Of a stretch of DNA of 64,000 nt, positions 17,502 through 33,973 are shown piece by piece. Below the pieces are notes generated by a model. The model searched no databases. It was not told the DNA's origin and saw nothing but the letters and a program-made list of their open reading frames with translations. The position numbers and the translations under genes were made by a program. Numbering within the stretch: position 1 is the first letter of the stretch; every line of letters begins with the position of its first letter. The stretch comes from Pseudomonadota bacterium. GTDB taxonomy: Bacteria; Pseudomonadota; Gammaproteobacteria; Xanthomonadales; Ahniellaceae. Where the stretch lies: NCBI GenBank assembly GCA_022843465.1, contig JALHNO010000006.1, forward strand, positions 62,001 to 126,000. The letters run 5' to 3'.

Positions 17502-20147
17502 CTAGTCCTCGAATCCGTCGCCGAACATGCCGCTGGCATCGGCATCGACAGCAGTGTTGTTGACCTGGTCGGGATCGCCGACACCGGCGCCGGTCGCTAC
17601 TGTGGCCGTATTGCTGATGCCGGATTCCGAAGTGATGCGGACAGGCGCAGTCACCGTGAGGGTGACGCTGCTGGCTGCCGGGAGATCGACCATCAGGCTG
17701 ATGTCGCCCATGCCCGAAGCGGTCGAGCAACTGGAGTTGCCATCGTTGACGCAGGTCCAGCTGGTGGCGGCCTCGTCGAACAGGGCGTCGTCAATGTCGT
17801 CGCTGACCAGGGCGCCGACGGTGGCGGACGGGCCGGCATTGCTGACGATGATGGTGTAGACCGTGGTCGCGCCGCTCTGCACCATGTCCTCGCCATTCTC
17901 CTTGCTGATCGACAGATCGGCAGCAGGAATCACCTCATGATTGGGCGAGTTGTCGGTGGTGAAACCGTGATTGGCGTCGCCGGTGTAAAAGGCCTGGAAG
18001 ACATAGGTACCCAGACTCAGCGGCGCTGTATTGATCGTGGCCACGCCATTGACAATGGCGGCATTGCCGACCGGGCCCGGGCTCGGTGAAACGATCTGGA
18101 ACGCGACCGTGCCCACCGGAATGCCGCCGGTCAGTGTCGCCGTCAGCGTCGCGCTGTTGCCTTCAAGACTGGGATTGGGTGAGGACGTCAGTTCCATCAC
18201 CACGGCGGCCTGGGTGATCTCCTGCGAGATCGGTCCGGCGGCACTGCCGAGGTAATTTGCGGTCTGCGCGTAGGCAGCGGTGATCGGATGGGTTCCGACG
18301 TTGAGATTGTTGATCGTTAGCTGGGCTGTCCCAGCGACCAGGGCCACGGTACCGATCGGTGTTCCGTTGTCGCTGAATACGACATTGCCGCTTGGCGTGC
18401 CGCCGCCAGGCGGGGTGACCGACATGCTTGCGGTAAACGTCACGGCCTGTCCGTAGGGCGCCGAAATCGCCGACGAGTTCAACGTCATCGTGGTGGTGGC
18501 GCGGGCAACGGTAACCGCGCTTGCCGCAGATGCGCTCGGCAGATGTTCGCTGTCGCCAAGGTAGTTCGCGGTGATGCTGTAGCTGCCGGCATTGGGGCTG
18601 CTCAGGATCAGCTGTGCCTGACCACTGCCGTTGACGGCGACCGAGCCGAGCGAGGCGGCTCCATTGAGGAAGCTCACCGTGCCGGTGGGGGTGCCGCCAG
18701 TGACTTGGGCCGTCAACGTCAGGCTCTGTCCGAACACGATGCTGTTGCTGCTGACATTGAGCGTGGTGGTGGTGCCGGTGCCATTGTTGAACACATAGGC
18801 CGAGCCGGAGTTGTTGCCGACGCCCGCGACATCATCCATGGGTGCGCCGACAATCGCGGTGCCACCTGCCAGCGCAACGCCAAAGCCGAAGTTGTCATTC
18901 AATGCCGCATCGCTCGCGATGTACTTGTCGAGCTGGGCCCAGCTGCTGCCGGTACGCCGGTAGACATAGGCAGAGCCCGCATTCACCACGGCCGTCAGGT
19001 CATCCACATAGGCGCCGACGACGGCGAGATCGCCCGAGATTGCCACCGAGTGACCGAAGAAGTCATCAGCGGCTCCATCCGAGGCCAGCAGATGCGCCTG
19101 GAAGTTCCAGGTGCCGGTGGTCTCCAGGAACACCGATGCCCGGCCGGAGTTGCTTCCGGCCACGCCGTTGAAGAACGGTTGCCCAATGATGGCCGAAGTT
19201 CCGTTGATCGCTACGCTGGTGCCGAATTCGTCCTCGGAGGTGCCGGTGGGTGGCGACAGCTTGGTGGTCTGCGTCCAGACGCCGGTATTGCGGGTGAAGG
19301 CATAGGCGCCGCCGGCCTGATTGCCAAAGGCATTGGTGTCCTTGGGCGCACCGACGACCACGCGTTCGCCAGAAATCGACACGGCGGTGCCGAACTGGTC
19401 TCCGGTAGCGGCGTCGGACGCGATCAGGCGCTGTTGCTGGGACCAGGTGCCGGCACTGCGGGTGAATACATAGGCCGAGCCGGTATTCAGTGTGGGCGTG
19501 CTGTCCAGGCTGGCGCCGGCAACCAGCGTGTTGCCATCCAGCGACACCGAGATACCGAAATTGTCGCCGGGCTGGATATCAGTGGACACCACGCGTTGCT
19601 GCAACGTCCAGACGCCCGCGCTTCGTGTGTAGACGTAGACCGCTCCGCTGCCACCTTCGAACGGCGCGCCGACCGCGAGCGTATCGCCCGAGATGGTGAC
19701 CGCATAACCGTAGTTGGCATTGACCGTAGGCGTCGAGGCCACCAGGCGCTGTTGCCGTGTCCAGCTGGTGCCGCCGCTGCGGACGAACACGTACGCCGAA
19801 CCCGCATCCGCTGCGGCAGCTTCGTCGTTGAGGTAAGCGCCCACCACGGCAGTATCGCCAGAGACCGCCACCGAATAACCCATATTGTCTTCGGCTGCGC
19901 CTTCGCCGGGATTGGGCAAAAGTTTGAATGACTCGCTGATATCGGCGAGGCGGATGCCGATCCGGGCCACCGGCAGCACCTTGCCGTCTGCCGTTGCGGC
20001 CTTGCCGGAACTGGCGGGCTGGGTCGCCGCGGTGGCGGACTGAGTGATGAGGCAGGCGGCCAGCAGGGCGGCCCCGAATACACTTGCGGCGGTTCTGAAA
20101 ACGGTCACTCCATCACTCCTTGCAGGGCGAAGCTCTGTAGGCTTCAT
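17502..20147 (-). CDS. Large exported FG-GAP / Ig-like / DUF11 surface protein with GFE tail
   Basis: The protein has about 881 residues from the ATG at 20147; a longer start at 20195 exists. The signal peptide ends LLAACLITQSATA and also contains a lipobox-like LAAC, so lipoprotein processing is possible. Seven FG-GAP repeats (about 60-460; pattern FGxSVAISGDxAVVGA...GSAYVFxR) should form an integrin-like propeller. Three bacterial Ig-like domains follow (about 465-745), starting for example at TLNVSSNSIVFGQSLTL. One DUF11 domain comes next (ADLSISKENGED), then the tail SGMFGDGFED. FG-GAP and Ig modules suggest adhesion or matrix binding. The C-terminal tail closely resembles that of the nuclease at 30582-33752. 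Confidence 0.85.
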   Translation of the reverse strand: MKPTELRPARSDGVTVFRTAASVFGAALLAACLITQSATAATQPASSGKAATADGKVLPVARIGIRLADISESFKLLPNPGEGAAEDNMGYSVAVSGDTAVVGAYLNDEAAAADAGSAYVFVRSGGTSWTRQQRLVASTPTVNANYGYAVTISGDTLAVGAPFEGGSGAVYVYTRSAGVWTLQQRVVSTDIQPGDNFGISVSLDGNTLVAGASLDSTPTLNTGSAYVFTRSAGTWSQQQRLIASDAATGDQFGTAVSISGERVVVGAPKDTNAFGNQAGGAYAFTRNTGVWTQTTKLSPPTGTSEDEFGTSVAINGTSAIIGQPFFNGVAGSNSGRASVFLETTGTWNFQAHLLASDGAADDFFGHSVAISGDLAVVGAYVDDLTAVVNAGSAYVYRRTGSSWAQLDKYIASDAALNDNFGFGVALAGGTAIVGAPMDDVAGVGNNSGSAYVFNNGTGTTTTLNVSSNSIVFGQSLTLTAQVTGGTPTGTVSFLNGAASLGSVAVNGSGQAQLILSSPNAGSYSITANYLGDSEHLPSASAASAVTVARATTTMTLNSSAISAPYGQAVTFTASMSVTPPGGGTPSGNVVFSDNGTPIGTVALVAGTAQLTINNLNVGTHPITAAYAQTANYLGSAAGPISQEITQAAVVMELTSSPNPSLEGNSATLTATLTGGIPVGTVAFQIVSPSPGPVGNAAIVNGVATINTAPLSLGTYVFQAFYTGDANHGFTTDNSPNHEVIPAADLSISKENGEDMVQSGATTVYTIIVSNAGPSATVGALVSDDIDDALFDEAATSWTCVNDGNSSCSTASGMGDISLMVDLPAASSVTLTVTAPVRITSESGISNTATVATGAGVGDPDQVNNTAVDADASGMFGDGFED

Positions 20148-20210
20148 GCTTACTGGCTGGGGCAGAATGACCTCTGGAAATATCCGCCACGCCAATCTCT
20201 GAGCACACGA

Positions 20211-20231
20211 TACGCCGATTCTATCGGCGTA
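20211..20231. promoter_or_regulatory. Inverted repeat upstream of the FG-GAP protein gene
   Basis: TACGCCGA and TCGGCGTA form a perfect 8-bp inverted repeat separated by TTCTA. It lies 64-84 bases before the start codon of the minus-strand FG-GAP gene, in a relatively A+T-rich gap. On the minus strand the spacer reads TAGAA within TAGAAT, a possible -10, so a bound repressor could cover the promoter. Confidence 0.4.
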
Positions 20232-20393
20232 CTGTGGTGCATTTTGACTAGCCGCCGTTGAATTTTGGTTATTTCAGCCGGCGTTCATCTCTGCAGCGCG
20301 GCTCGCAGGCGCGGCATCGGCGCGGCAAACCATTGCGAGCGCGATGGCGACAGCATGCAAGGCCAGCAAGGTCGCGGCACAACAATCCGGCGA

Positions 20394-21188
20394 TCAGCCG
20401 CGCTCGCTTTGCTTGGCGATATCCCACAGCGCATCCTGTGCCGCCAGATCGAGCGCCTCGAGCGGCGTGCCCTTGGCCAGTGCGCTGGTTTCCATCTGTC
20501 GAAAGCGTCTCTCGAATTTGCGATTGGCCGTACGCAGCGCGTGCGAGAAATCCACCTTGGCATGGCGGGCAAGATTGACGCAGACAAACAGCACATCGCC
20601 GATCTCGTCGGTGAGCCGATCATGATCGCTGCCATTGGCCAACTCGGCGCGGACCTCGTCGAGTTCCTCGTGGAGTTTTTCGAACACCGGTGTGACGTCG
20701 GGCCAGTCAAAGCCAACGGTTGCCGCCCGCTTCTGCAGTTTCAGCGCGCGCTGCCATTCCGGCATGCCATGACTGATTCCGGCCAGTACGCTGGTATCGC
20801 TGTCCGGTTTTTCGACGCGCTTCTGCTGTTCCCAGAGCCGGGTCTGTTCCTCGGCGCTGCGCGTTTCGGCGTCCCCGAATACGTGCGGATGCCGGCGCAG
20901 CATCTTGTCGCAGATGGCGGTAACGACGTCATCGAAGCCGAAGTGGCCGGCTTCACGCGCGAGCTGGCTATGAAACACCACCTGCAGCAGCAGGTCGCCG
21001 AGTTCATCACGCAGGTCCGCGAAGTCCTTGCGGTCGATGGCATCGGCGACTTCGTAGGCTTCCTCGATCGTGTACGGTGCGATGCTGTCGAAGTTCTGCT
21101 TCACATCCCACGGACAGCCACGCTCCGGATCGCGCAGCCGCCGCATGATCTCGAGCAACTGCTGCATGGCCGAAGCGGCATCAGTCAT
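20394..21188 (-). CDS. mazG: Nucleoside triphosphate pyrophosphohydrolase MazG
   Basis: The protein has 264 residues and two MazG domains. The first has CPWDVKQNFDSIAPYTIEEAYEV and DELGDLLLQVVFHSQLA; the second has HEELDEVRAEL and DEIGDVLFVCVNLARH. These EExxE/ExxD clusters bind magnesium. The family hydrolyses NTPs to NMP and pyrophosphate, and in E. coli affects nucleotide pool sanitation and survival under starvation. The start at 21188 overlaps the stop of cysQ by 8 bases, so the two are coupled in a mazG-cysQ-nudE operon. Confidence 0.94.
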   Translation of the reverse strand: MTDAASAMQQLLEIMRRLRDPERGCPWDVKQNFDSIAPYTIEEAYEVADAIDRKDFADLRDELGDLLLQVVFHSQLAREAGHFGFDDVVTAICDKMLRRHPHVFGDAETRSAEEQTRLWEQQKRVEKPDSDTSVLAGISHGMPEWQRALKLQKRAATVGFDWPDVTPVFEKLHEELDEVRAELANGSDHDRLTDEIGDVLFVCVNLARHAKVDFSHALRTANRKFERRFRQMETSALAKGTPLEALDLAAQDALWDIAKQSERG

Positions 21189-22008
21189 TGCGTGGCCGCC
21201 CGGGGTTGTCGCCCAGCCACTGCGCCCACGGCGCCGAGGTGTCTGCGTAGGCCATGAAATCCGGATTGAGCAAGGTCTCGCGCTGGTTGTAGCGCAGCGG
21301 TTGCAGCGCCATATCGGTAACCCGGCCGCCGGCTGCCTCCACGACTGCCTGCCCGGCTGCGGTATCCCATTCGCTGGTCGGACCGAAGCGGAAGTAGACA
21401 TCGGCCTCGCCCTCGGCCACCAGGCAGAATTTGAGCGCCGAGCCCATCGGCCGCAATTCGTGTGCACCGATTTTGTCGAGGACCCCGAGCAGGCGCGCAT
21501 CTGCGTGCGAGCGGCTGCCGGCAACGCGCAAGACCTCGCCGCGTTGTCCGCTGACGCTGATGGCGCGCACGCTGCCGTCGCGATCGAATCGTCGTGCGCC
21601 GAGATCGCGGGCACCGACGCAGGAATAGCCAGGTACCGGTGCATGGACGACACCGAGCACGCTTTCGTGGTGCTCGATCAAGGCGATGTTGACGCTGAAC
21701 TCGCCGTTGCGCTTGATGAATTCGCGGGTGCCATCGAGCGGATCAACCAGCCAGTAGATCGGCCATTGCCGGCGCTGCCCGGTATGGGCGGCCGCCGATT
21801 CTTCCGACAGCACCGGAATCTCCGGGGTGAGGAGTGTCAGTTCGCTGACGATCAGTCGATGCGCGGCCATGTCGGCTGCGGTCAGCGGTGAACGGTCTTC
21901 CTTGAGCTCGACGGCAAAGGCGCTGTTGTAGACGTCGAGGATGGCGTGGCCGGCGCGTTCGGCGATGCCGCGCACCGCGGCGAGCAGTTCAGCACGATGG
22001 TGCGACAT
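21181..22008 (-). CDS. cysQ: 3'(2'),5'-bisphosphate nucleotidase CysQ
   Basis: The protein has 275 residues. Metal-binding motifs of the inositol-phosphatase superfamily are present: KEDRSPLTAADMAAH, PVLSEESAAA, WLVDPLDGTREFI and SEWDTAAGQAVVEAAGG. The REFIKRNGEFSVNIALIE segment is the CysQ type. It dephosphorylates 3'-phosphoadenosine 5'-phosphate from sulfate assimilation. Its start shares one base with the nudE stop (TGATG) and its stop overlaps mazG, so all three are one transcript. Confidence 0.93.
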   Translation of the reverse strand: MSHHRAELLAAVRGIAERAGHAILDVYNSAFAVELKEDRSPLTAADMAAHRLIVSELTLLTPEIPVLSEESAAAHTGQRRQWPIYWLVDPLDGTREFIKRNGEFSVNIALIEHHESVLGVVHAPVPGYSCVGARDLGARRFDRDGSVRAISVSGQRGEVLRVAGSRSHADARLLGVLDKIGAHELRPMGSALKFCLVAEGEADVYFRFGPTSEWDTAAGQAVVEAAGGRVTDMALQPLRYNQRETLLNPDFMAYADTSAPWAQWLGDNPGRPRND

Positions 22009-22565
22009 CAGGCTTCCCGCGCCCGTTGCTGCAGGTACTCGCGGGTGACGAACAGCGCGGCGATCGAACGGCCATCGGTGACATCCTCGCGACCGACCAG
22101 CTTGTTGAGTTCGTCCAGGCGCCAGGGCACGACTTCCAGCTCTTCGGGCTCATCGCCTTCCAGGCGTTCCGGATAAAGATCCTCGGCCAGCACCACATGA
22201 ATCATGTTGGCCATATAGGTCGGCGCCAGCGCGAGCTTGGTCAGCAGAGTCAGGCGGCGCGCGCCGACGCCGACCTCTTCCTTCATCTCGCGATTGGCGC
22301 CTTCCAGTACATCCTCGCCTCGCTCCAGCCGGCCCTTGGGCAGGCCCAGCTCATAGGCGTGCAAGCCAGCCGCATATTCCCGGACCAGCAGTACGGTCTC
22401 GGCATCCTGCATCGGCACCACCATTACCGAGCCGCGACCGGATCCCGGCATGCGCTCGAAGGTACGGCGGGCGCCATTGCCGAATTCCAGATCGATCTGC
22501 TCCAGTTGGAAGCGGGTACCCTCGTTGAGAATGCGGCGTTCGTGAATGATCGGGAGTTTTCGCAT
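22008..22565 (-). CDS. nudE: ADP compounds hydrolase NudE (Nudix)
   Basis: The protein has 185 residues from the ATG at 22565 (MRKLPIIHERRILNEG). An ATG 9 bases further upstream is equally possible, since neither has a clear ribosome binding site. The Nudix box is GLPKGRLERGEDVLEGANRE followed by MKEEVGVG, with the REVGxEE-type acidic residues intact. NudE cleaves ADP-ribose, NADH and related ADP compounds. It heads the nudE-cysQ-mazG cluster, a set of small-molecule clean-up enzymes. Confidence 0.9.
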   Translation of the reverse strand: MRKLPIIHERRILNEGTRFQLEQIDLEFGNGARRTFERMPGSGRGSVMVVPMQDAETVLLVREYAAGLHAYELGLPKGRLERGEDVLEGANREMKEEVGVGARRLTLLTKLALAPTYMANMIHVVLAEDLYPERLEGDEPEELEVVPWRLDELNKLVGREDVTDGRSIAALFVTREYLQQRAREA

Positions 22566-22690
22566 AAGCGCCATTGTAGCGCTGGGGCATGACGGTCGCT
22601 GCGGACCGGGCGCACGGATGCGCGAACTTTTGCATCGGGCCGGAAAAACGCCCGCAACTGCGTGCGCCAAGCCATGGCGAGCCAGCAGCC

Positions 22691-23473
22691 TCAGCCCAGG
22701 CGGGACAGCAGTTCCGCGTGCAGGTTCGGTCGTGCCGCCAGCATGGAGGCGGTCTGCAGCCCGATTTCCTGACCGGCAAGATCGGTCATTACGGCACCTG
22801 CCTCGCGGCCGATCACGGTGAGCGCCGCGATATCGAGGATGTTGAGGTCCGACTCGATCACCGCGTCGACCGCGCCGCTGGCGAGCAGGTGATAGTGCAG
22901 AAAATCACCGTAGCCGCGGATCCGGTTGCAGTCGCGGATCACACTGCCAAGCGCCGACCAGCGCCGACGGTCGGCGGCGAGGCTGCGGATGTTTCCGGTC
23001 GAAATCTGCGCCGCCGACAGCGCGCGTTGCGGGCCGATGTCGACACGCGCACCATTGATCCAGGCGCCGCCGCCGCGGCGGGCCCAGGCGCATTCACCGT
23101 ACTGCATCGCGCTGGAGACGCCGACCACGAGTGCATCGTCAACCATCAGCGCGATCTGGGTGGAAAACATCGGATAGCGGCGTACGAACGACTTGGTGCC
23201 GTCGATCGGATCGATCAGCCAGAGCAGCCGCCCTGCGCCGGATCGGCCATATTCTTCGCCATAGTAGGCATGGTCGGGAAATTCACCGCGCAATACCGCC
23301 AGAATCGCCTGCTCGCATTCGCGATCGGCAATGGTGACCGGCGATTCGTCGGATTTGGTTTCGACATCGATCGGCGCCCGGTAGTAGCGCGCCACAACCG
23401 CTTCGGCAGCGTCGGCGGCGCGGCGGGCGACCGCCAGTGCGTGATCGAGAAATTCGTTGTCCAGATTCGCCAT
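22691..23473 (-). CDS. Inositol-monophosphatase-family phosphatase, HisN-like
   Basis: The protein has 260 residues. Metal-binding motifs are TKSDESPVTIADRECE, YYGEEYGRS, LWLIDPIDGTKSFVRR and ESDLNILDIAAL. The region GYGDFLHYHLLASGAVDAV resembles the histidinol-phosphatase (HisN) branch more than inositol-1-phosphatase, but substrate assignment from sequence is uncertain. The start at 23473 is 7 bases after the gspN stop, so it may be the last gene of the secretion operon transcript. It is the second phosphatase of this superfamily within 1.5 kb, after cysQ. Confidence 0.85.
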   Translation of the reverse strand: MANLDNEFLDHALAVARRAADAAEAVVARYYRAPIDVETKSDESPVTIADRECEQAILAVLRGEFPDHAYYGEEYGRSGAGRLLWLIDPIDGTKSFVRRYPMFSTQIALMVDDALVVGVSSAMQYGECAWARRGGGAWINGARVDIGPQRALSAAQISTGNIRSLAADRRRWSALGSVIRDCNRIRGYGDFLHYHLLASGAVDAVIESDLNILDIAALTVIGREAGAVMTDLAGQEIGLQTASMLAARPNLHAELLSRLG

Positions 23474-23480
23474 GACGGGC

Positions 23481-24257
23481 TCAGTAGATCCTGTTGATGG
23501 TGCCCTCGACGCGCAGCAGTGAGCCGCCGTCGAGGGTGCGTTCGCCGACATACATCAGGGCTTCGCGAATATGCTCGTGACCGGGGCGCGCATGCAGCAG
23601 GACCTCGGCGTTGAAGGCAAGGCCGCGCAGTTCGACCATGCCACGTGCCTGCAGCGGGCCGCCATCATCACGCACGCGGCCCTCGACCGAGCCATCGGCA
23701 CGCGGCGAGAAATCGATCACGATTCTTCCGAACCGGGCCTCGGCGGCACCGCTGACACCGACTTCGTCCCAGATCATCTGGCCAATCGCGAGGCGCACCA
23801 TGCCGTCTTCGATCACCACATCATCCATCCTGACGCGGATGTCGCCGAGCAGCCTCAGTGATGGAATATCCAGCGCGGGTTCCAGCATGCTGGCAGGAAA
23901 CTCGGCACTTGCCGCGGCGAGTTCGACGCGGGGACCACGCAGCAGGAAATCGGACTCGGCTTTCCACTCCGGGCCGCTGACATTCAGATGGCCGCGCGCT
24001 GAACCACGCAGCGCCGTCCACGGGTCCAGGCGCCAGTGCACGGGGCCGACCGGGCGTGCGGCGTAGCTGAGCATCGCGGCCTTGCCCTGCCAAAGGGTGC
24101 CTTCGATGCCCTGCAGCCGCAGCGGCTGCGCGCGCGCGCCGTAGCGATCGTAGACAAAGCGTGCCGGCACCGAGAGCACGAGCGCTGCCGCGATGCCGAT
24201 CAGGAACAACAGGAACAGCAGCAGGCCAGGCCAGCGGCGTTTCTTGGTTTGAGTCAT
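23481..24257 (-). CDS. gspN: Type II secretion system protein N
   Basis: The protein has 258 residues. A single N-terminal transmembrane helix (PGLLLFLLFLIGIAAALVLS, about 10-29) is followed by a periplasmic beta-rich region with RLQGIEGTLWQGKAA, the most recognisable GspN signature. GspN is an inner-membrane accessory subunit. It is the last gsp gene of the G-to-N series, 88 bases after gspM, and no gspD follows. A GspC-like function has been suggested for GspN in some systems; this is not testable here. Confidence 0.85.
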   Translation of the reverse strand: MTQTKKRRWPGLLLFLLFLIGIAAALVLSVPARFVYDRYGARAQPLRLQGIEGTLWQGKAAMLSYAARPVGPVHWRLDPWTALRGSARGHLNVSGPEWKAESDFLLRGPRVELAAASAEFPASMLEPALDIPSLRLLGDIRVRMDDVVIEDGMVRLAIGQMIWDEVGVSGAAEARFGRIVIDFSPRADGSVEGRVRDDGGPLQARGMVELRGLAFNAEVLLHARPGHEHIREALMYVGERTLDGGSLLRVEGTINRIY

Positions 24258-24345
24258 GGCGGATCAATACCGTTCAGAAGCGCCGGCTGAAAGCCGGGCG
24301 CCTGGGTGACGTGATGGATGAATCTTGCGCAAGCTGAAAGAGCGT

Positions 24346-24837
24346 TCAAGTTCCCGATTCGACCAGACCGATCCGGCCCTCGACTGTGCCGAGCGCAGGA
24401 CCGCGTTGCAGGGAGTACTCGTCGACCCTGACGCCATAGGCCGCGTTCAGGCGTTCCAGCCAGAGTGCCAGCTGGTCGAATTCGGCAGCCTCGATGAAGA
24501 CGTTGACGCGGCCGCCAGAAACCGGTTCGATACGTTTGATCGCATGGCCCAGACGCGCCTCACGGGCGCTGCCATCGGCAAGCGCCAGCAAGGATCGGCC
24601 GCCGCGCTCGAACACGCTCGCGCTGCCGCCGGCGCCGAGCGCCTGCAACTGCGCTGAAGCCTGGTGCATGTAGGCGAGGTCGGCCTCGGCCTGGCTGGCC
24701 TGGCTGAGCAATGAGCGCCGCGAGCGCTGGGTCGGATCCCACAAGAAGGCCCAGAACAGCAGGATCGCGATCGGCACCGCGGCGAATCGCAGGATGCGGC
24801 GGTCGCGCTCGCTGAGTGACTGCCACCAGGCCTTCAT
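24346..24837 (-). CDS. gspM: Type II secretion system protein M
   Basis: The protein has 163 residues: a short cytoplasmic start (MKAWWQSLSERDRRILRFA), one transmembrane helix (about 18-34), a coiled-coil stretch and a ferredoxin-like periplasmic domain (about 80-160). This is the standard GspM plan. It binds GspL in the inner-membrane platform. ATG and the gspL stop overlap as ATGA. Confidence 0.88.
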   Translation of the reverse strand: MKAWWQSLSERDRRILRFAAVPIAILLFWAFLWDPTQRSRRSLLSQASQAEADLAYMHQASAQLQALGAGGSASVFERGGRSLLALADGSAREARLGHAIKRIEPVSGGRVNVFIEAAEFDQLALWLERLNAAYGVRVDEYSLQRGPALGTVEGRIGLVESGT

Positions 24838-25991: not shown

Positions 25992-26005
25992 TCCTGCGAT
26001 CTTAC

Positions 26006-26926
26006 TCAGAACGAGCCGCGACTGCGCGCGACCACCTGCAGGGGCTGGGCAGGCTTGCGCTCGATCACGCTGAAATAGGCGATCTCGATGCCGTCCATGT
26101 CGATCACCGACTCGGCCAGGAACCGGCTGCTGGCGACGCTCAGTCCGCTGCCATCACCCGGGTCCAGCCCGGCTTCGCGCAGCTGGCTCAGCAGCATGTC
26201 CACCGAGTCGTAGCGGGCGCGGCCTTCGTTGTAGAGCCGGCGCGCCACCACCTCGCTCATCTCGGGGGCCAGGCTCATCAGCACCTGCAGGCTCGCCGTA
26301 TTCACATTCAACGCGGAATCCGCCGGCGCTGCGCAGACGTGGGGTTCAAGCGCGGCGAATACCTCGGCGTCGATGCCACGCACTAGGCGCAGTTCCGAGA
26401 CATGACGCATCGGCTGGTTGCCGGCACGATAGGGCGGTGTCAACAGCAGATAGCTGAGATCCTCGGCACCGCGCGGCAGCGGCGTGCTGTCGCTGTCGAC
26501 CCAGTCGATGATGGCCTCGGTCAGCCCGATGTCGAGCTTGAGGATCTGCAGCAGGCGATCCCAGCGCTGACGCTCCACCGCGTTGACATCGCTGCCCTGG
26601 ACCAGCCGGTTGACATTGAGGCAACCATTCATGTCGCTGAGACGACCGGCGATCTTGCCGCCCGGCACATCAGTCGGCGGCAGCGCATTCGCCCACACGT
26701 CCTGACGCGAATCGACCGGATCGCCGTCGGCCTGGTCGCGGCGCAGGACCTCGATCGCATAGGCCTCCAGGCCGCGCGCATAGCTATAGGCCTGCTGCTC
26801 ACGCAACAGATTGCGCGTGCGCGCCATCGCCATCTCACCATCATCGATCATCGCGGCGACCACCAGGGTGCCGATCGCCACCAGCAGCAGGGCGATGATC
26901 AGGGCGACACCCCGATGGCGCCTCAT
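26006..26926 (-). CDS. gspK: Type II secretion system minor pseudopilin K
   Basis: The protein has 306 residues. The N-terminus MRRHRGVALIIALLLVAIGT is a prepilin-type leader cleaved at the glycine, and it lacks Glu at +5 (mature VALII), as is typical for GspK. SDMNGCLNVNRL and ALNVNTASLQVLMSLAP match the calcium-binding alpha domain. With GspI and GspJ it forms the pseudopilus tip. Start and gspJ stop overlap as ATGA. Confidence 0.93.
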   Translation of the reverse strand: MRRHRGVALIIALLLVAIGTLVVAAMIDDGEMAMARTRNLLREQQAYSYARGLEAYAIEVLRRDQADGDPVDSRQDVWANALPPTDVPGGKIAGRLSDMNGCLNVNRLVQGSDVNAVERQRWDRLLQILKLDIGLTEAIIDWVDSDSTPLPRGAEDLSYLLLTPPYRAGNQPMRHVSELRLVRGIDAEVFAALEPHVCAAPADSALNVNTASLQVLMSLAPEMSEVVARRLYNEGRARYDSVDMLLSQLREAGLDPGDGSGLSVASSRFLAESVIDMDGIEIAYFSVIERKPAQPLQVVARSRGSF

Positions 26927-27567
26927 GGACTTGCGGCGCCGGCTGCTGCGGGCAGGGCGCCTGCCAGTTCCACCACGCGCCGCAGCTCACCGTATTCGCG
27001 GGTGGCGATCACCACGGCAATCGCGCGCGGCAGGCCGGCATCGATGCCCTCGCGGGCGTTCGCTCGTGGCCACTGGTTGCTCCACTGACCGCCATCGAGA
27101 TAGCGGAACTCCAGCCGCGTCACCGAATCCAGCATCGGCGTGATCGTTGGGCGGCTGTCAATCGCGCGATCGAGCACCGCAAAACTGACCCGGTTGATCT
27201 GCTGGTCAGCCAACGCCCACTGCACGCGCTCCAGCCGCGACCGGGTCGCGCCGAGCGGATTGGCGAGTCCGGCGCGGGTCAGTTCGAGCGCGACGCCGTC
27301 ACCACGCAACATCTCGGCGCGATCGCCATAGCCCTCACGCACGCCGCGATCGATCGCCTGGCGCAGATCGCGTTCCAGGCGGCCGATGGTGGTCTGCAAC
27401 TGGCGCAGGGTCTCGGCACGTGCGTGCAGATTCTCGCGGGCGCGCAGCAGGGTATCGACCGCGGCATAGGCGGCAGCCGACATCAGCGCAAAGATCACCA
27501 CCGCGACCAGGACCTCGATCAGGGTGAACCCCGATCGGCGACGATCTGAAGGGCGCGGCATGCTCAT
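26923..27567 (-). CDS. gspJ: Type II secretion system minor pseudopilin J
   Basis: The protein has 214 residues from the ATG at 27567, which overlaps the gspI stop by 4 bases. The prepilin motif is RRSGFTLIEVLVAVVIFALM with Glu at +5 of the mature protein. It is a pseudopilus tip subunit. The longer frame to 27690 runs into gspI and is not used. Confidence 0.9.
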   Translation of the reverse strand: MSMPRPSDRRRSGFTLIEVLVAVVIFALMSAAAYAAVDTLLRARENLHARAETLRQLQTTIGRLERDLRQAIDRGVREGYGDRAEMLRGDGVALELTRAGLANPLGATRSRLERVQWALADQQINRVSFAVLDRAIDSRPTITPMLDSVTRLEFRYLDGGQWSNQWPRANAREGIDAGLPRAIAVVIATREYGELRRVVELAGALPAAAGAASP

Positions 27568-27950
27568 TGACCGGCAAACCCGACCAGGCTGATCGACGGT
27601 GCCGCAGCGGCCTTGGCATCCGCCGGGAACACATGCAGGTCCATGCGACGGATTGCTGGTTCCGGTGTCGCCTGCACCACCAGGGTCCATTTGAAATCGT
27701 AGGGACCGGCGCGGCCCTGGCCCTCGCGCTTGCCGACGCGCGGAAACGATTCACGCAGGCGCAGCTCGGTCATTGTGGTGTCGGCCAGCCAGCTGGCGAA
27801 ACTGAGTTGCTCGAGCTGCGCCTGGCGCTGCGCCATGCGTGCCGTCGAGGCCAGCAGGGCGGTCATCGCAACGGCGATCACGGCCAGTGCAGCGAGTACC
27901 TCGATCAGGCTGAAGCCGAAAGCGTTGCGCTGATAGCCGGCACGGCTCAT
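27564..27950 (-). CDS. gspI: Type II secretion system minor pseudopilin I
   Basis: The protein has 128 residues. The prepilin leader and helix read NAFGFSLIEVLAALAVIAVA, and the family core LASTARMAQRQAQLEQLSFASWLADTTM follows. The start at 27950 overlaps the gspH stop as ATGA. GspI is the nucleus of the pseudopilus tip. Confidence 0.9.
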   Translation of the reverse strand: MSRAGYQRNAFGFSLIEVLAALAVIAVAMTALLASTARMAQRQAQLEQLSFASWLADTTMTELRLRESFPRVGKREGQGRAGPYDFKWTLVVQATPEPAIRRMDLHVFPADAKAAAAPSISLVGFAGQ

Positions 27951-28462
27951 GGCGCGGCTTTCCAGTCGATCCATTCGCGGCTGTCGGGCAGGCGTCGTTG
28001 CACACGGCTGCTGCCGACAGGATCGACCACGAGCCGGTACGCAGGATCGCTGCTGGCGGCCAGCAGATCGAGCAGCAGGGCAGTGCGCTCGCCCGAAGCG
28101 AAGCACAGCATCAGCGGGTCTTCGGAAACCACGGGGCCGAGCTCAGGTTCATCCAGCTGCAGGCGGATATCGGCCGGCAACTGGTACGGCGCCAGCGGCG
28201 CCTCGGTCTGCAGTTCGAAATCTTCGCCGCGACGCTTGCTGAAGGCATAGCTGCCCTCGCCAAGGTGCAGGCCTAGATCGCGGCCGCTCAACTCGGCGCG
28301 CTCGCAGGCGGCATCGATGCGTGCCTGCAGACGTTCGGCCTCGCGACGCAGTCGCGGCTCATTGCCGGCCCCCGCCATCGACATCACCAGCACGCCCGCA
28401 ATCACCACCAGGATGGCCAGGGCGACCAGCATTTCGATCAGCGTGAAGCCGCGTGTGGACAC
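27947..28462 (-). CDS. gspH: Type II secretion system minor pseudopilin H
   Basis: The protein has 171 residues and starts at a GTG 2 bases after gspG. The leader MSTRGFTLIEMLVALAILVV is a prepilin cleavage site with Glu at +5, and EAERLQARIDAACERAELSGRDLGL is the GspH pattern. It joins the tip complex to the major pseudopilin. Confidence 0.9.
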   Translation of the reverse strand: MSTRGFTLIEMLVALAILVVIAGVLVMSMAGAGNEPRLRREAERLQARIDAACERAELSGRDLGLHLGEGSYAFSKRRGEDFELQTEAPLAPYQLPADIRLQLDEPELGPVVSEDPLMLCFASGERTALLLDLLAASSDPAYRLVVDPVGSSRVQRRLPDSREWIDWKAAP

Positions 28463-28464
28463 GA

Positions 28465-28893
28465 TTACCAGTTGCCAATGTCGGCGTTCTCGCCTTCGCC
28501 ACCCAGCTGACCATCCTTGCCCAGCGAATAGACATCGAATTCGCCGTGCTGGCCGGGGCTCAGGTACTGGTAGTCACGATTCCACGGATCTTTCTGCAGA
28601 CGATCGATATAGCCGCCGGTCTGCCAGTTGGGCGCCTCCGGCTGGCCCGAGGGCTTCTCGATCAGGGCACGCAGGCCCTGATCGGTGCTCGGATAGGTGA
28701 AGTTGTTGAGCTTGTACATGTTCAGCGCGCTGGACAGCGACTGCACATCGGACTTGGCCCTGGCGACCAGCGCGGTTTCGACATTGCCGATCACCTTGAA
28801 GGCGATGATCGACGACAGGATCGCCAGGATGGCGACCGCGACCACGATTTCGATCAGGGTGAAGCCGCGTTCATGAGGACGGGATGGGGACAT
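28465..28893 (-). CDS. gspG: Type II secretion system major pseudopilin G
   Basis: The protein has 142 residues. The leader RGFTLIEIVVAVAILAIL is a prepilin cleavage motif. The calcium-binding C-terminus is typical: TYPSTDQGLRALIEKPSG, GGYIDRLQKDPWNRDYQY and DVYSLGKDGQLGGEGENADIGNW. It polymerises into the pseudopilus that pushes folded exoproteins through GspD. It is the first gene of the G-to-N operon; gspE and gspF, usually upstream in Xanthomonas, are replaced here by the divergent bioA. A TATGAT -10-like element lies on the minus strand at 28933-28938. Confidence 0.95.
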   Translation of the reverse strand: MSPSRPHERGFTLIEIVVAVAILAILSSIIAFKVIGNVETALVARAKSDVQSLSSALNMYKLNNFTYPSTDQGLRALIEKPSGQPEAPNWQTGGYIDRLQKDPWNRDYQYLSPGQHGEFDVYSLGKDGQLGGEGENADIGNW

Positions 28894-28975
28894 GACTTCA
28901 AGCCTGCTGCTGGTGAGTAGAGGATGGGCGCCATCATACTGAGGGACCCCGCCCGCGCCGAGAGCTGATGCCCCC

Positions 28976-30325
28976 ATGTCGATGAACAAGGAACTTGCCG
29001 AGCGCGATCTGCGTGTGCTGTGGCATCCCTGCACCCAGATGCATGACCACGAAAGCCTGCCGATGGTTCCCATTGCACGCGGGGAAGGCGCCTGGCTGGT
29101 CGATCACGACGGCAAGCGCTATCTCGATGCCATTTCCAGCTGGTGGGTCAACCTGTTCGGGCATGGTCATCCCGGGATCCGAGCGGCCATCGCGGCCCAG
29201 CTCGAGCGGCTTGAACACGTGATCCTGGCCGGCTTCACGCACGAGCCGGCCGTCCAGTTGGCTGAGGGCTTGCTGCGGCTGGCGCCGCCCGGGCTGGCCC
29301 GCGTGTTCTATGCCGACAATGGTTCCAGCGCCATCGAAGTCGCGCTGAAGATGAGCTTCCATGCCTGGCGCAACGCCGGCAATACCCGCAAGCAAAGATT
29401 CGTCGCGCTCAGCGGCAGCTATCACGGCGAGACCCTGGGTGCGCTCTCGGTCACCGATGTGCCGCTCTATCGCGAGACCTATGCACCCCTGCTGATGCAG
29501 CCGATCTTTGTGCCCTCACCCGATAGCTATGCGCGCGCCGACGGTGAATCACCAGCGGCCTACGCTGCGCGGTGCGCCGATGTGCTGGATGCGACCCTGG
29601 CCGAGCATGCCGAAGACATCTCGGCGCTGATTCTGGAGCCGCTGGTGCAGGGCGCCGCCGGCATGCGGATGTACCCGCCCGAATATCTGCGCCGTGCCCG
29701 CCAGGCCTGCGACCGCCATGGTGTGCATCTGATCGCCGACGAGATCATGGTCGGCTTCGGCCGCACCGGCACCCTGTTTGCCTGCGAACAGGCCGCCATC
29801 ACGCCGGATTTTCTCTGTCTGTCCAAGGGCATCACCGGCGGCTTTCTGCCGCTGGCCGCGGTGCTCACCACGCAATCGATCTATGACGCCTTCTACGCCG
29901 AGTACCAGGCGCGCCGCGCGTTCCTGCATTCGCACAGCTATACCGGCAATCCGCTGGCCTGCGCAGCGGCCTGCGCGGTGGTCGAAATGTTCGAGCGCGA
30001 GGACTGGATCGCGCGCAATCGCGGCACCGCGCAGCAGCTGGCCAACGCGATTGCGCCATTGCGCGATCATCCGAATGTCGCCGATGTCCGCCAGACCGGC
30101 ATGATCGCCGCGGTGGAACTGGTGCGCGATCGGGCGTCGCGGACGCCGTTCGACTGGCGCGAGCGGCGTGGCCTGAAGGTGTACCGGCATGGTTTGCAGC
30201 GTGGTGTGCTGCTGCGTCCGCTCGGTGACGTGGTGTATTTCCTGCCGCCCTATTGCATCAGCCCCGACGAGATCGCGTTGATGCTGAAGGTGGCGACGGA
30301 GGCCATCAACAACGCCGTCGAATGA
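28976..30325 (+). CDS. bioA: Adenosylmethionine-8-amino-7-oxononanoate aminotransferase
   Basis: The protein has 449 residues. BioA motifs are LWHPCTQMHDHE, LDAISSWWVNLFGHGHP, FYADNGSSAIEVALKM, LSGSYHGETLGALSV, LIADEIMVGFGRTG and the PLP lysine in LSKGITGGFLPLA. It makes 7,8-diaminopelargonic acid with S-adenosylmethionine as amino donor in biotin synthesis. Two in-frame ATGs (28976 and 28982) differ by two residues. No other bio genes are near, and it is divergent from gspG across 82 bases. Confidence 0.95.
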   Translation: MSMNKELAERDLRVLWHPCTQMHDHESLPMVPIARGEGAWLVDHDGKRYLDAISSWWVNLFGHGHPGIRAAIAAQLERLEHVILAGFTHEPAVQLAEGLLRLAPPGLARVFYADNGSSAIEVALKMSFHAWRNAGNTRKQRFVALSGSYHGETLGALSVTDVPLYRETYAPLLMQPIFVPSPDSYARADGESPAAYAARCADVLDATLAEHAEDISALILEPLVQGAAGMRMYPPEYLRRARQACDRHGVHLIADEIMVGFGRTGTLFACEQAAITPDFLCLSKGITGGFLPLAAVLTTQSIYDAFYAEYQARRAFLHSHSYTGNPLACAAACAVVEMFEREDWIARNRGTAQQLANAIAPLRDHPNVADVRQTGMIAAVELVRDRASRTPFDWRERRGLKVYRHGLQRGVLLRPLGDVVYFLPPYCISPDEIALMLKVATEAINNAVE

Positions 30326-30332
30326 TCCGATT

Positions 30333-30490
30333 CCTTCTCCCGCTGGGCGGGAGAAGGTGGCCGCAGGCCGGATGAGGGAAAACCTGCGACACCGCCAGCG
30401 ATTTCCTTCACCGCGCCGTTGCTCGCGAACGCCAAACACCTCGCCGGTTTCCGCTCAGTAGCCCTCTCCCGCAAGCGGGCGCGGGGAAGA
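30333..30490. repeat. Intergenic palindromic repeat elements
   Basis: The first unit is a perfect 11-bp stem CCTTCTCCCGC / GCGGGAGAAGG with loop TGG (30333-30357), followed by GTGGCCGCAGGCCGGATGAGGG, which itself contains GGCC-GCA-GGCC. A second, related unit at 30461-30490 contains CTCTCCCGCAAGCGGG and lies just upstream of the nuclease gene. Elements of this wording are frequent between genes in Xanthomonadales and related bacteria. The first could also act as an end-of-transcript hairpin for bioA, though it has no T-run. Confidence 0.7.
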
Positions 30491-30581
30491 GCGATGCGCG
30501 CCTTTGCTGCGACGGCACATGCAACCGTCATCTGCTGGCGCTAGAGTGCCCGGTTCAATAAACGGTCCGGGGTAGCAAGGC

Positions 30582-33500
30582 ATGTCGTCGAATTGGATGA
30601 AGCCAGCGAAGGCGCTGGTGGGTGTCGTATTCTTTGGTCTCTCCGCGAGCGTCAGCGCTCAGAGCGTTGTAATCAGCTCAGGCGTGCCCGCGGTCCAAAC
30701 TTTCGATTCGCTGGCCACCAGCGGAACCGCCAACACCAGCGTCCCAAGTGGATGGTATTTCGTCGAGAATGACGCGCCCGGGCAATACTCGGCGGGTGAC
30801 GGAACCGGCGCGACTCTGAGTGGTGGCGTCTGGTCATTCGGCACAGGCGCTTCTACTGAGCGTGCACTTGGTCAAGTGCGGTCCGGGAGCACTACGCCGA
30901 AGATCGGCGCGCAGCTCCAGAATGGTACAGGTGCGGTACTCCCTGACATCCTGGTCAGCTATACGGGAGAACAGTGGCGCATCGGCACCGCAAACCGGGT
31001 TCCGCCTGATCGTCTGGATTTTCAGTACAGCCTGGATGCGACTTCGCTTTCGAGCGGCACCTGGGTAGATGTCGACTCGCTCGATTTTGTTTCCCCCAAT
31101 CCAAACGTTGCGGTCGGTGGCTACGACGGCAATTTGGCGATCAATCGCACGGCGATTTCTGCGGTAATCAGTGGTCTGAATATCGCACCGGGCGCAACTC
31201 TTTGGGTCCGCTGGTCGGATCCGGATGCTGCAGGGGGAGCTGACGACGGCCTGGCCGTCGATGACATCAGCTTCGGCGTAACGGCAGATTTGCCCCCCGT
31301 CGTCGCCAGCACGTCGCCCCTCCCCGGCGCCAGCGGCGTAGCGGTCAACAGCAATCTCGTCGTGAACTTCTCCGAGCAGGTCACCACGGCCGCCGGCGCG
31401 TTCACACTCAACTGCACATCGAACAGCAATTACCCGATCACGGTCAGTGGCAGCGGTGCGACGCGCACCATCAACCCCGATGTCGACTTCGCATTCGGCG
31501 ACAATTGCACGGCCACCGTGGTCGCGGCCCATGTCAGCGATCTCGACGGCACGCCCGATGCGATGGCGTCCAACCATATGTGGTCGTTCAGCACGGTGGT
31601 CGATACCGCGCCGACGATCACATCGACCCAGCCGGCTTCCGGCGCCACCGGTGTCGCGGTCAACGCGGTCGTGGTGATCAATTTCTCCGAGCCGGTCAGC
31701 CCGACCATTCCGTGGATCACCCTGACCTGCAACAGCATCGTCTACAACGGTAGCCTGGTCGGCAGCAATGGCAATGCCACCTGGACCCTCGATCCGGATA
31801 CCAACTTCAACAACAACGACAGCTGCACGGTCAATATCACCGGTGCCAATGTGGTCGATGTTGACGGTACACCGCATCCGGTAGCGGGCAATCCCTCGTT
31901 CGGCTTCACGGTTGCAGCCGATATCGCGCCGACGATCCTGAGTACCTATCCGATCCATATGGACGTCAACGTCCCGGCGGCGAGCAATCTGACCGTGGTG
32001 TTCTCCGAGCCGGTCACCGTCCAGGCCGGTGCCTTCAGCATCAACTGCGCCGGCAGTGGTGGTCATCCCTTCGTACAGACCGACAGTAACCTGACCAGTT
32101 ACACGCTGAATCCGGATACGGACTTCACTGCCGGCGAAGCCTGCACCTTTGATATCACCGCGAACCTGATCACCGATATCGATGGCGCCGCCGATCCGCT
32201 TGCTGCCAATGCGCGCATCGATTTCACTGTCGGTGCCGGCATTGCCGGCTATTACGAGCGCGTCGATACCAGCAGTTGCCGCGCGCTGCGGGCGACCCTG
32301 CACGGCGTGATCGATGATCACTCGGCGGTGGTGTATTCCGACAGCGGCAATGACTGGACGCCGGGCGACCCCAGTACCTACGACGTCTGGGAAATCCTCA
32401 ATCTCGCCGATGAAGATCCGCTCGATCCCAGCAAGATTCTTGATGTGTATCGCAATGAGAGCTACACCAAGATCGCGGGTGGTACCGGCGTCTACAACCG
32501 CGAACATGTCTGGCCGAATTCGCAGGGCTTCAACAATCTCGACGTGCTGGACGGATTTCCCAACCCGCCGTACACCGACACTCATATGCTGATGGCCTCG
32601 AACACCGTCTACAACGCCAATCGGGGAAGCAGGGTGTTCGCCACTTGCAATCCTGCTGTGACCGGAACCTGTACCGTGGATGCGACGATTTCCAATCCAT
32701 CCAATGGTGCCGGCGGCGGCGCCACCGGCTACACCACGCCGCCGGGCCACAACTGGTATACCTCGGGCCAGGATGGCAACAGCGGCTCGTATGAGCCCTG
32801 GAGCTTCCGTCGCGGCGACCTTGCGCGGGCGATGCTGTACATGGACGTGCGGTTCGAAGGCGGTCGCAACAGTCGCAATTTCCAGCGCGAGCCCGACCTG
32901 ATCCTGACCGACAACCGTTCGCTGATCACGGTGACCAGCGGATTTGTCGCACAGGGATACTCCGGCCTGCTGACGCCGCTGCTGGCCTGGCACAACGCTG
33001 ACCTGCCGACCGTGCGCGAGGGCCTCCGCAACGCGGTGGTCGAAAGCGTGCAGGGCAATCGCAATCCCTTTGTCGACCATCCGGAATGGGCCGACGTATT
33101 GTTTGCAGGCGCCTGCAACGGACCCGCCTTCGTTGCAGTGGATGATGATTTCGCCGCGATCGAAGACACCGTGCTGAATCGCAATTCGGTCAATGATATT
33201 GGCGTGCTCAATGATGACCGCGTCTTCGAAGGCGCTGCGCTGACGGTCAGTACGCTGCCGGTCAGTCTGCCCGTGCACGGCACGGTCAGCCTTAGCAGCA
33301 ATGGCCAGTTCGTCTACACACCGACCACGGCCAATTTCTGCGGCAAGGACAGCTTCATCTACCAGGTCGGCAATGGCACGCTCAACGACACCGCGACCGC
33401 AAACATCCATATCGCCTGCGTGAATGATCTGCCGACCACGGTGGGCTCGATCAGCAATGTCTCCACCAACGCTGGCGCGCCACTCAGCATCAACACGGCG

Positions 33501-33752
33501 CAGGCCTTTATCGATGTCGATGGTGACGATCTGGTCTACAGTGTCAGCAGCGTGCCCGCCTTGCCGGCCAGTCTGTCGATCGATGGCGTATCCGGTGTCA
33601 TCAGTGGCACGCCGACCGTGCCGCAGGCGGGTGTCTACACGGTAACGGTCCGCGCCACCGAGCCCAGCCCGCTGACCGGTTTTGCCGAGCAGACGTTCAC
33701 GCTGACGATCAACGCTGACAGCAACACGATATTCGGCAACGGCTTCGAATAA
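30582..33752 (+). CDS. Secreted endonuclease I-family nuclease with Ig-like domains and GFE tail
   Basis: The protein has 1056 residues with a signal peptide ending SVSAQS. Residues about 25-230 form a beta-sandwich-like domain. Three Ig-like domains of the Big_5/SbsA type follow (about 235-550; each begins like STxPxxGAxGVAVNxxxVVNFSEPV). Residues about 555-845 are an endonuclease I domain with VYNREHVWPNSQGFN (catalytic His), TDTHMLMASNTVYNANRGSR and the C-terminal LAWHNADLP...VQGNRNPFVDHPEWADVLF. A cadherin-like domain and a putative Ig domain (about 855-1040) precede the tail DSNTIFGNGFE. It probably degrades extracellular DNA for nutrients or biofilm remodelling. The type II secretion operon lies nearby, which makes that route plausible but unproven. 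Confidence 0.92.
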   Translation: MSSNWMKPAKALVGVVFFGLSASVSAQSVVISSGVPAVQTFDSLATSGTANTSVPSGWYFVENDAPGQYSAGDGTGATLSGGVWSFGTGASTERALGQVRSGSTTPKIGAQLQNGTGAVLPDILVSYTGEQWRIGTANRVPPDRLDFQYSLDATSLSSGTWVDVDSLDFVSPNPNVAVGGYDGNLAINRTAISAVISGLNIAPGATLWVRWSDPDAAGGADDGLAVDDISFGVTADLPPVVASTSPLPGASGVAVNSNLVVNFSEQVTTAAGAFTLNCTSNSNYPITVSGSGATRTINPDVDFAFGDNCTATVVAAHVSDLDGTPDAMASNHMWSFSTVVDTAPTITSTQPASGATGVAVNAVVVINFSEPVSPTIPWITLTCNSIVYNGSLVGSNGNATWTLDPDTNFNNNDSCTVNITGANVVDVDGTPHPVAGNPSFGFTVAADIAPTILSTYPIHMDVNVPAASNLTVVFSEPVTVQAGAFSINCAGSGGHPFVQTDSNLTSYTLNPDTDFTAGEACTFDITANLITDIDGAADPLAANARIDFTVGAGIAGYYERVDTSSCRALRATLHGVIDDHSAVVYSDSGNDWTPGDPSTYDVWEILNLADEDPLDPSKILDVYRNESYTKIAGGTGVYNREHVWPNSQGFNNLDVLDGFPNPPYTDTHMLMASNTVYNANRGSRVFATCNPAVTGTCTVDATISNPSNGAGGGATGYTTPPGHNWYTSGQDGNSGSYEPWSFRRGDLARAMLYMDVRFEGGRNSRNFQREPDLILTDNRSLITVTSGFVAQGYSGLLTPLLAWHNADLPTVREGLRNAVVESVQGNRNPFVDHPEWADVLFAGACNGPAFVAVDDDFAAIEDTVLNRNSVNDIGVLNDDRVFEGAALTVSTLPVSLPVHGTVSLSSNGQFVYTPTTANFCGKDSFIYQVGNGTLNDTATANIHIACVNDLPTTVGSISNVSTNAGAPLSINTAQAFIDVDGDDLVYSVSSVPALPASLSIDGVSGVISGTPTVPQAGVYTVTVRATEPSPLTGFAEQTFTLTINADSNTIFGNGFE

Positions 33753-33794: not shown

Positions 33795-33973
33795 CGGCGC
33801 CCATCCGCACAGCATTCAGCGCGTTCCGCCCACTGCTGGCGCCCGGCATGGCCTGGGACGCCGCGGGCCTGACATAATCCCGGTAGTTCCCCGGTCCTGT
33901 TGCTCATGCAGGAACTTGCAGCGGCCTCCCGCGGTCGATGCAGGGCATCGCCTTTCGTCAATCTGGAATCCCC

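Follow-up and report, generated by a model that had tools for sequence, protein, structure and literature searches.

A C-terminal tail shared by many unrelated, mostly exported proteins in Xanthomonadales and its association with a classical type II secretion system

How a type II secretion system (T2SS) chooses its substrates is an open question, which a seven-residue tail shared by unrelated proteins makes directly testable. Such a tail occurs in a 64,000-nucleotide stretch of DNA from a bacterium of the Ahniellaceae (Xanthomonadales; assembly GCA_022843465.1, contig JALHNO010000006.1, positions 62,001 to 126,000), the whole of which we call the window. Two large proteins encoded there end in MFGDGFED and IFGNGFE, and their genes lie on either side of a gspG-N operon. 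A first-pass annotation took the shared ending for a sorting or secretion signal, perhaps tied to type II export or surface attachment. Is this tail a tag, how far does it extend, and what might read it? Across the window's genome (5.18 Mb, 45 contigs), the tail belongs to a real and large tag system, apparently undescribed, and among relatives it is nearly always accompanied by a classical T2SS.

A tag at the end of unrelated proteins

The first of the two proteins (17502-20195, minus strand) combines FG-GAP_2 repeats, three Big_3_5 immunoglobulin (Ig)-like domains and DUF11, and its translation ends in ...DADASGMFGDGFED. It likely starts at an internal Met at about 20147, and a signal-peptide-like start is seen at MKPTELRPARSDGVTVFRTAASVFGAALLAACLITQSATA. 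Its tag, F-G-D-G-F-E, occupies 17508-17525 (pattern match 17509-17525), with one D between it and the stop codon (17502-17504). The second protein (30582-33752, plus strand) carries Big_5 Ig-like domains, Endonuclease_1, Big_9 and He_PIG and ends in ...NADSNTIFGNGFE, with F-G-N-G-F-E at 33732-33749 (pattern match 33732-33748) abutting the stop codon (33750-33752). Both translations thus end in the shared tail as annotated, and by their Pfam domains the upstream parts are unrelated. The pattern TTYNNNRAYGGNTTYGA matches the window at exactly these two places, whereas 100 shuffles give 0.02 matches on average.

The same ending recurs throughout the genome. A codon pattern for F-x-[DN]-G-F-[DE], TTYNNNRAYGGNTTYGAN, has 88 matches, all read in frame, compared to 2 for the reversed control pattern, and 76 of the 88 fall no more than 12 residues from the end of an open frame, where 2.8 would be expected if matches were evenly spread along frames. 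Chance frequency is therefore far exceeded. The motif is the very end of 56 of these 76 tails; one further residue is present in 9, two are present in 10 and six in 1, so that 75 have zero to two. L, V or I precedes F in 67 tails. At the variable position A and G predominate, N (50 tails) or D (26) comes next, and G, F and E then follow in all 76. Conserved columns in the 76 aligned tails are limited to the last residues, plus one G column at 90% or more. The short acidic or Ser spacer that the annotation placed ahead of the tail does not generalize: what is conserved is [L/V/I]-F-x-[N/D]-G-F-E, and D is weakly preferred at the third position ahead of F (25 of 76). Synonymous codons vary at all tag positions, and 69 of the 76 18-base stretches are distinct, indicating that selection acts on the protein and not on the DNA. 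Among the other 12 matches, several look like chance frames and a few lie near, rather than at, the end. One more, L052 (G000:C3:241793, minus strand), reads LFSDGFE right behind the signal peptide of a protein with a mature length of about 340 residues, the only motif in that position among the loci fetched.

The passengers are diverse. BLAST groups the 76 tagged proteins into 55 clusters, of which 45 are singletons, and a scan that covered up to 660 C-terminal residues per protein matched 85 Pfam families, none in more than six members and the commonest being the S8 peptidases, with six. They include proteases, sugar dehydrogenase-like propellers, FG-GAP, PKD and Ig-like repeats, a glycosidase and a nuclease. 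A signal-peptide-like start was scored in 63 of 73 tagged proteins and in 41 of 209 other long frames of the same loci, by a crude, home-made score that excluded three cut frames and with control frames that may include non-genes. The expectation that tagged proteins carry signal peptides thus holds for most of them and not for all, and a type I-like arrangement, with a C-terminal signal and no N-terminal signal peptide, does not describe the set. The pattern repeats in four other genomes (families f1, f5 and f8), where 20 of 20 fetched matches are in frame at the C terminus and 14 of the 19 with a closed 5' end look signal-peptide-like.

Homologues of the window's endonuclease show the tail as an addition to a common domain. 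A scan with that domain gave 80 loci, and ends were read at 54 of them, the 26 left out being mostly from Xanthomonas, then from Planctomycetota and others. All 12 homologues from Xanthomonas, Luteimonas, Pseudoxanthomonas, Lysobacter (yr284, aestuarii) and Thermomonas end shortly past the domain and are untagged, and the tail-less homologues belong to lineages without the native T2SS described below. In Dokdonella, Tahibacter soli (L243), Pseudofulvimonas, Pseudomarimonas (L235), two Rhodanobacteraceae bins and others, a short linker and a tag are added, the tag in some reading NGFD, SGFE or NGFG. Longer ends of the form FxDGFE[SGT]G...W[ST], running about 15 residues past GFE, were found at L250, L262, L264 and L276, which belong to Acidobacteriota, Holophagae, Thermoanaerobaculia and one deltaproteobacterium. 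This long form is possibly a wider family that contains the short tag, and FxDGFESGDxxxWS recalls what we take to be the first strand of a jelly-roll domain.

Distribution of the tag and the classical type II system

The genome holds two T2SSs: an Xps-like one, complete on contig 9 (L120), and a classical one, hereafter T2SS-A or the native system, which is split between gspG-N in the window (20394-30439) and gspC, D and E on contig 20 (L119, G000:C20). The gspF gene of T2SS-A was not located. The GspL of the Xps-like system is not recognized by the TIGR01709 model, and classical GspL, which is, served as the marker of T2SS-A. GspD is useless for this purpose, since it is present in 120 of 121 relatives, and the proposal that the tag tracks gsp genes in general does not survive that count. 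What stands is a link to one T2SS lineage, the one whose gspG-N genes lie in the window.

FxDNGFE-stop is found in 65 of the 121 relatives, with 56 copies in the window's genome. Within the order, 96 of 397 genomes have at least one tag; of 317 sampled genomes from other orders of the class, 25 yielded a single match or two and no genome reached three, close to what the reversed control gives. Over the samples searched, the tag is restricted to the one order. Of the genomes with at least three tags, 73 have classical GspL and 3 lack it, compared to 72 and 249 of those with fewer than three; GspL was scored on at most four candidates per genome, which makes its absences less certain, and five negatives rechecked in full remained negative. 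In family f12, which includes Dokdonella and Tahibacter, GspL is present in 22 and absent from 1 of the genomes with at least two tags and is present in 7 and absent from 120 of the others; the corresponding numbers in family f2 are 5 and 0, and 39 and 108. The tag is thus nested in genomes with the classical T2SS. Separately, genome G096 (f7, g50), 98% complete, has four FxDNGFE-stop matches and no classical GspL.

Phylogenetic comparison refines this association. In a tree of 60 classical GspL proteins, eight Xcs-like rows from families f2 and f12 are set apart, and none comes from a genome with more than one tag of the G form (FxDGFE or FxNGFE). On the other side of the tree, 36 of 52 rows come from genomes with at least two G-tags, and five more come from genomes with a variant R form considered below, so that the G or R tag accompanies 41 of 52 rows there and 0 of 8 Xcs-like rows. 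In the four of the eight Xcs-like genomes that the search for the R and S forms covered, it gave 5, 3, 3 and 1 matches, compared to 0, 1, 5 and 4 for the control. Because of shared descent, genome counts overstate the link to the T2SS. A gyrB tree of 30 genomes places the tag-bearing rows here and there near its base, with the tag and native GspL jointly absent from the large clades of f12 and f2, from a pair in f7 and from G026. Independent pairs that differ in the tag number three on well-supported branches and five on all branches; GspL changes in the same direction in 2.1 of the three supported pairs on average and never in the opposite one, with significance out of reach. The link to the T2SS is good but correlational.

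A concerted change in the tag

The endonucleases of Wenzhouxiangella end in FSDRFEAAP or FSDRLEAAP, and for this reason F-x-[DN]-[RS]-F-[DE] was searched, with a control pattern, in 64 genomes. Several genomes of family f9 that have classical GspL and lack the G-tag are rich in this form: matches and control matches are 98 and 3 in G042, 60 and 2 in G098, 56 and 5 in G440, 53 and 3 in G017, 51 and 2 in G455, 41 and 2 in G083, 41 and 3 in G093, and 37 and 0 in G103, with no G-tag at all in G042 or G017. The view that f9 genomes possess the T2SS and no tags is overturned by these counts, as many carry the R form. In 22 of 30 loci fetched from G042 and G017 the motif lies within six residues of the stop, nearly always as FxDRFE. 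Two other f9 genomes are mixed, with 7 G and 15 R/S matches in G465 and 3 G and 17 R/S matches in G072. High counts also occur in G002 (46, control 4), where the matches listed are mostly of the S form, and in G012 (40, control 5). Genomes without GspL are mostly near the control, some reaching 10 to 16 matches (G062, 10 and 2; G064, 16 and 4; G026, 14 and 5).

A shared partner that reads the tag would be expected to produce this pattern, in which unrelated proteins of a lineage change the same tail residue. The lineage-wide change from FxDGFE to FxDRFE in Wenzhouxiangella-like genomes suggests that the tag has a cognate receptor.

Comparison with known tags and signals

Searches of Pfam and NCBIfam yielded no model of the tail, in keeping with the annotation, which knew of no named family. 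With E values up to 10, no NCBIfam model matched more than three of the 76 forty-residue tails: choice-of-anchor Q matched three, rhombosortase-dependent M36 two and nine others one each, and we read these as matches to the passengers. Six homologous endonuclease tails, the long form included, matched no family model. Phrase searches of open-access papers returned no earlier description of the tag, an absence of little weight in searches of this kind.

PEP-CTERM and MYXO-CTERM tags occur in many copies per genome on diverse signal-peptide proteins and were found through a C-terminal pattern and a phyletic profile; for the GFE tail there was no NCBIfam model to be found. Like these and GlyGly-CTERM, the GFE tag is a short conserved C-terminal motif on many unrelated exported proteins of one genome, and unlike them it lacks the tripartite architecture, having neither a membrane helix nor a basic end. 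A hydrophobic 17-residue stretch within the last 35 residues is present in 2 of 76 tails, where it lies ahead of the motif; no tail has two or more K or R within its last eight residues, and the mean net charge is -1.4.

The GlyGly-CTERM/rhombosortase system is the nearest parallel. According to one study (PMC13393428), a short tag is carried by unrelated exported enzymes of Vibrio cholerae, among them VesB and other Ves proteases and the DNase Xds; it is co-distributed with T2SS core genes and preceded by a linker, and a separate T2SS signal is needed. The GFE tag shares the short C-terminal form, the unrelated exported enzymes including a DNase, the co-distribution with the T2SS and the linker. 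It differs in lacking the glycine-rich motif, helix and basic end, with nothing after it in most tails, in marking dozens of proteins per genome, and in having no known processing enzyme.

Signals recognized by T2SSs themselves offer a second comparison. In Dickeya, loop 3 of PelI, a flexible exposed stretch of about nine residues, is presented in one report as a specific recruitment signal that contacts GspC and GspD (PMC7949064), and another has the EpsC PDZ domain required for VesB in Vibrio (PMC12369372). As with PelI loop 3, we propose a short exposed stretch as a recruitment signal; the PelI loop and the VesB Ig fold are internal, structural signals of one or a few substrates, whereas the GFE tag is linear and terminal and is carried by dozens of unrelated proteins. 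The C-terminal domains of type IX secretion system (T9SS) substrates in Bacteroidota likewise act as a C-terminal address on many unrelated exported proteins. According to a review, T9SS substrates require a folded C-terminal domain (PMC9251779); the GFE tag is a tail of about seven residues with no folded conserved domain. A classical PDZ ligand presents a free hydrophobic C-terminal residue, and 56 of 76 tails end in E, the other 20 carrying one, two or six further residues of various kinds. The GFE tag could possibly be a PDZ ligand of the internal type.

What the tag might do

The reading toward which we lean, at somewhat less than even confidence, is that [L/V/I]-F-x-[N/D]-[G/S/R]-F-E at or near the C terminus is a linear sorting tag for T2SS-A of this order. 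The N-terminal signal peptide would carry tagged proteins over the inner membrane, where they would fold; the exposed tail would then dock the folded protein on a periplasm-facing component of T2SS-A, and the protein would leave through the secretin of that system. We infer that the T2SS is itself the reader and that export requires the tag. We give slightly less credence to a stronger claim: that one T2SS of the order reads the seven-residue tail as a true linear, transferable and terminal secretion signal, by which substrates would be recognized and retargeted by sequence alone, with tag and reader co-evolving as G gives way to R in Wenzhouxiangella-like species. The signal tied to type II export that the annotation proposed draws support from the C-terminal position, from the unrelated and mostly signal-peptide-bearing passengers and from nesting in classical-T2SS genomes, and none from the flanking of the gsp operon or from gsp genes at large. 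The tag may serve export or surface attachment.

Several observations weigh against a tag for T2SS-A. A review holds that linear T2SS signals have been excluded (PMC9251779). G096 (4 tags), G459 (22) and G625 (4), three genomes that look complete, have no classical GspL even with all candidates rescored, G459 being a draft in 360 contigs and G625 one in 120. Conversely, tags are scarce or missing in several genomes whose GspL groups with the native ones, namely G081, G027, G118, G113, G065, G505, G643, G532 and G610; G065, G505 and G643 are small genomes, and the grouping of G532 and G610 across families suggests transfer. Untagged endonuclease paralogues exist in tag-bearing species (Tahibacter soli, L257; Pseudomarimonas arenosa, L247). 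Both kinds of paralogue therefore occur in one cell (with L243 and L235, respectively, as the tagged ones), which would allow a natural side-by-side comparison of the tag. The Xcs-like system of G063 has a GspC that looks PDZ-bearing and is without tags. Four supported pairs in the gyrB tree differ in GspL, and the tag follows in 0.8 of them and is unchanged in 3.2, partly because xenologous systems were deliberately sampled. Independent joint losses of tag and native T2SS are few, the sign test is underpowered, and the families tested for co-distribution were T2SS parts (plus gyrB for the tree), leaving room for another co-distributed receptor.

A close rival is retention at the surface, in which the tag of an exported protein is bound by an outer-membrane or cell-surface receptor or a processing enzyme, as with GlyGly-CTERM and rhombosortase in Vibrio. 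It too predicts nesting in T2SS-bearing genomes and a concerted switch of receptor and tag, and the GlyGly-CTERM passengers of V. cholerae, among them Xds and the Ves proteases (PMC13393428), are of the same kinds as those found here. The choice-of-anchor models of NCBIfam match few tails (3 and 1 of 76), which we read as proteins that use other anchors in other taxa. The tails do, however, lack the membrane helix and basic end of such anchors (a hydrophobic stretch in 2 of 76, two basic residues among the final eight in none of the 76), the motif of L052, right behind a signal peptide, fits poorly with cleavage and attachment at the C terminus, and no receptor or enzyme was identified in family searches that covered T2SS parts and gyrB. 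We regard retention as rather unlikely; if it is what the tag marks, the architecture would be new among C-terminal sorting tags, and soluble. A dedicated receptor outside the T2SS, such as an outer-membrane or vesicle-sorting protein, would make the T2SS association a by-product of lineage history and lifestyle, tag and T2SS having been lost in the same few ancestors. The few independent co-losses reach no significance on the tree; exceptions run both ways (G096, G459 and G625 versus G081, G532 and G610), and co-distribution was tested for T2SS families alone. Set against this, classical GspL is present in 22 of 23 tag-bearing genomes of f12 and in 7 of 127 others, regained Xcs-like systems do not restore tags, and lineages that lost the native system kept the endonuclease with its tail gone. 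We consider such a receptor unlikely.

It is harder still to hold that the tail is a structural cap or recurrent domain end, inherited with passenger domains and signaling nothing. Some passengers do share domains (six S8 peptidases and four InhA-like MAM proteins), and endonucleases of other phyla have the long FxDGFESGDxxxWS ends (L250, L262, L264 and L276). Yet a domain end would hardly be spread over 55 clusters among 76 proteins and 85 Pfam families, none in more than six members, keep a fixed C-terminal position with nothing after E in 56 of 76, or change from G to R together in unrelated proteins of one lineage, and we consider this explanation very improbable.

If T2SS-A reads the tag, the GspC PDZ domain suggests itself as the candidate reader, since binding of some substrates by this domain is known from other species. 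The GspC of T2SS-A has a PDZ domain, while the GspC-like protein of the Xps-like system (L120) shows none and ends in a coiled-coil-like stretch. Presence of the domain does not separate tag-bearing from tag-less systems, as the GspC of tag-less f9 and f7 genomes and of Xcs-like systems looks PDZ-bearing, and PDZ presence was set aside on this account. The length of a PDZ hairpin (ENGKxVGVRL versus GGGFRVRP) was likewise rejected as the determinant of tag form, since it follows lineage and G116, G066 and G078 combine G-tags with the short version. Six GspC PDZ domains of R-tag genomes (L132, L142-L144, L146 and L147; f9, g14) have in common an acidic helix residue, in LF[AS]D, which is missing from most GspC sequences of G-tag genomes; the R-tag set is a single genus and G066 has LF[AS]D too, making this a lead only.

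Whether the tag serves T2SS-A or retention, a large exported proteome of an environmental group becomes predictable from its sequences, and the tag could serve as a portable export tag.

The gsp operon and other genes of the window

The operon between the two tagged genes is as annotated, with genes from gspG to gspN on the minus strand. The major pseudopilin gene gspG of the classical system lies at 28465-29073 (TIGR01710, 165.1 bits, cut-off 88.85) and is followed by genes for the minor pseudopilins: gspH at 27947-28462, named in part from its operon position as its TIGR01708 score of 73.3 bits is under the cut-off of 80; gspI in the open frame 27564-28106 (TIGR01707, 60.6 bits versus 44.35) and gspJ in the open frame 26923-27690 (TIGR01711, 160 bits versus 64.85), both with internal protein starts; and gspK at 26006-26926 (NF037980, 257.7 bits versus 130). 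The classical gspL used as the phyletic marker is at 24834-25991 (TIGR01709, 205.4 bits versus 65), a gspM-like frame, probably gspM by position and sequence, at 24346-24837, and gspN at 23481-24257 (Pfam T2SSN PF01203, E 9.7e-31). The genes mazG, cysQ, nudE, bioA and a hisN-like gene likewise lie between the two tagged genes.

The annotation attached meaning to the flanking of this operon by tagged genes. A tagged gene lies within about 8.5 kb in 6 of 36 gspL regions from tag-bearing genomes, a number that includes the window itself, with its two tagged genes, and five of the 36 regions are shortened by contig ends. The placement is not conserved and is mostly coincidence, and we rejected it as evidence for function.

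Beyond the tagged endonuclease gene, on its 3' side, lies a gene for a DsbD-like disulfide reductase (33938-36262, plus strand). Further on, a 2,198-residue protein of DUF11 repeats (36827-43423, minus strand) ends in VPVPTLDRIALFSLMLLMMGVALRRARVA, with a PTL-like motif, a hydrophobic stretch and a basic end. No NCBIfam match of the IPTL-type CTERM kind was obtained for it; its tail resembles what we take to be a tag of that type, and this genome may use a second kind of tail besides the GFE tag.

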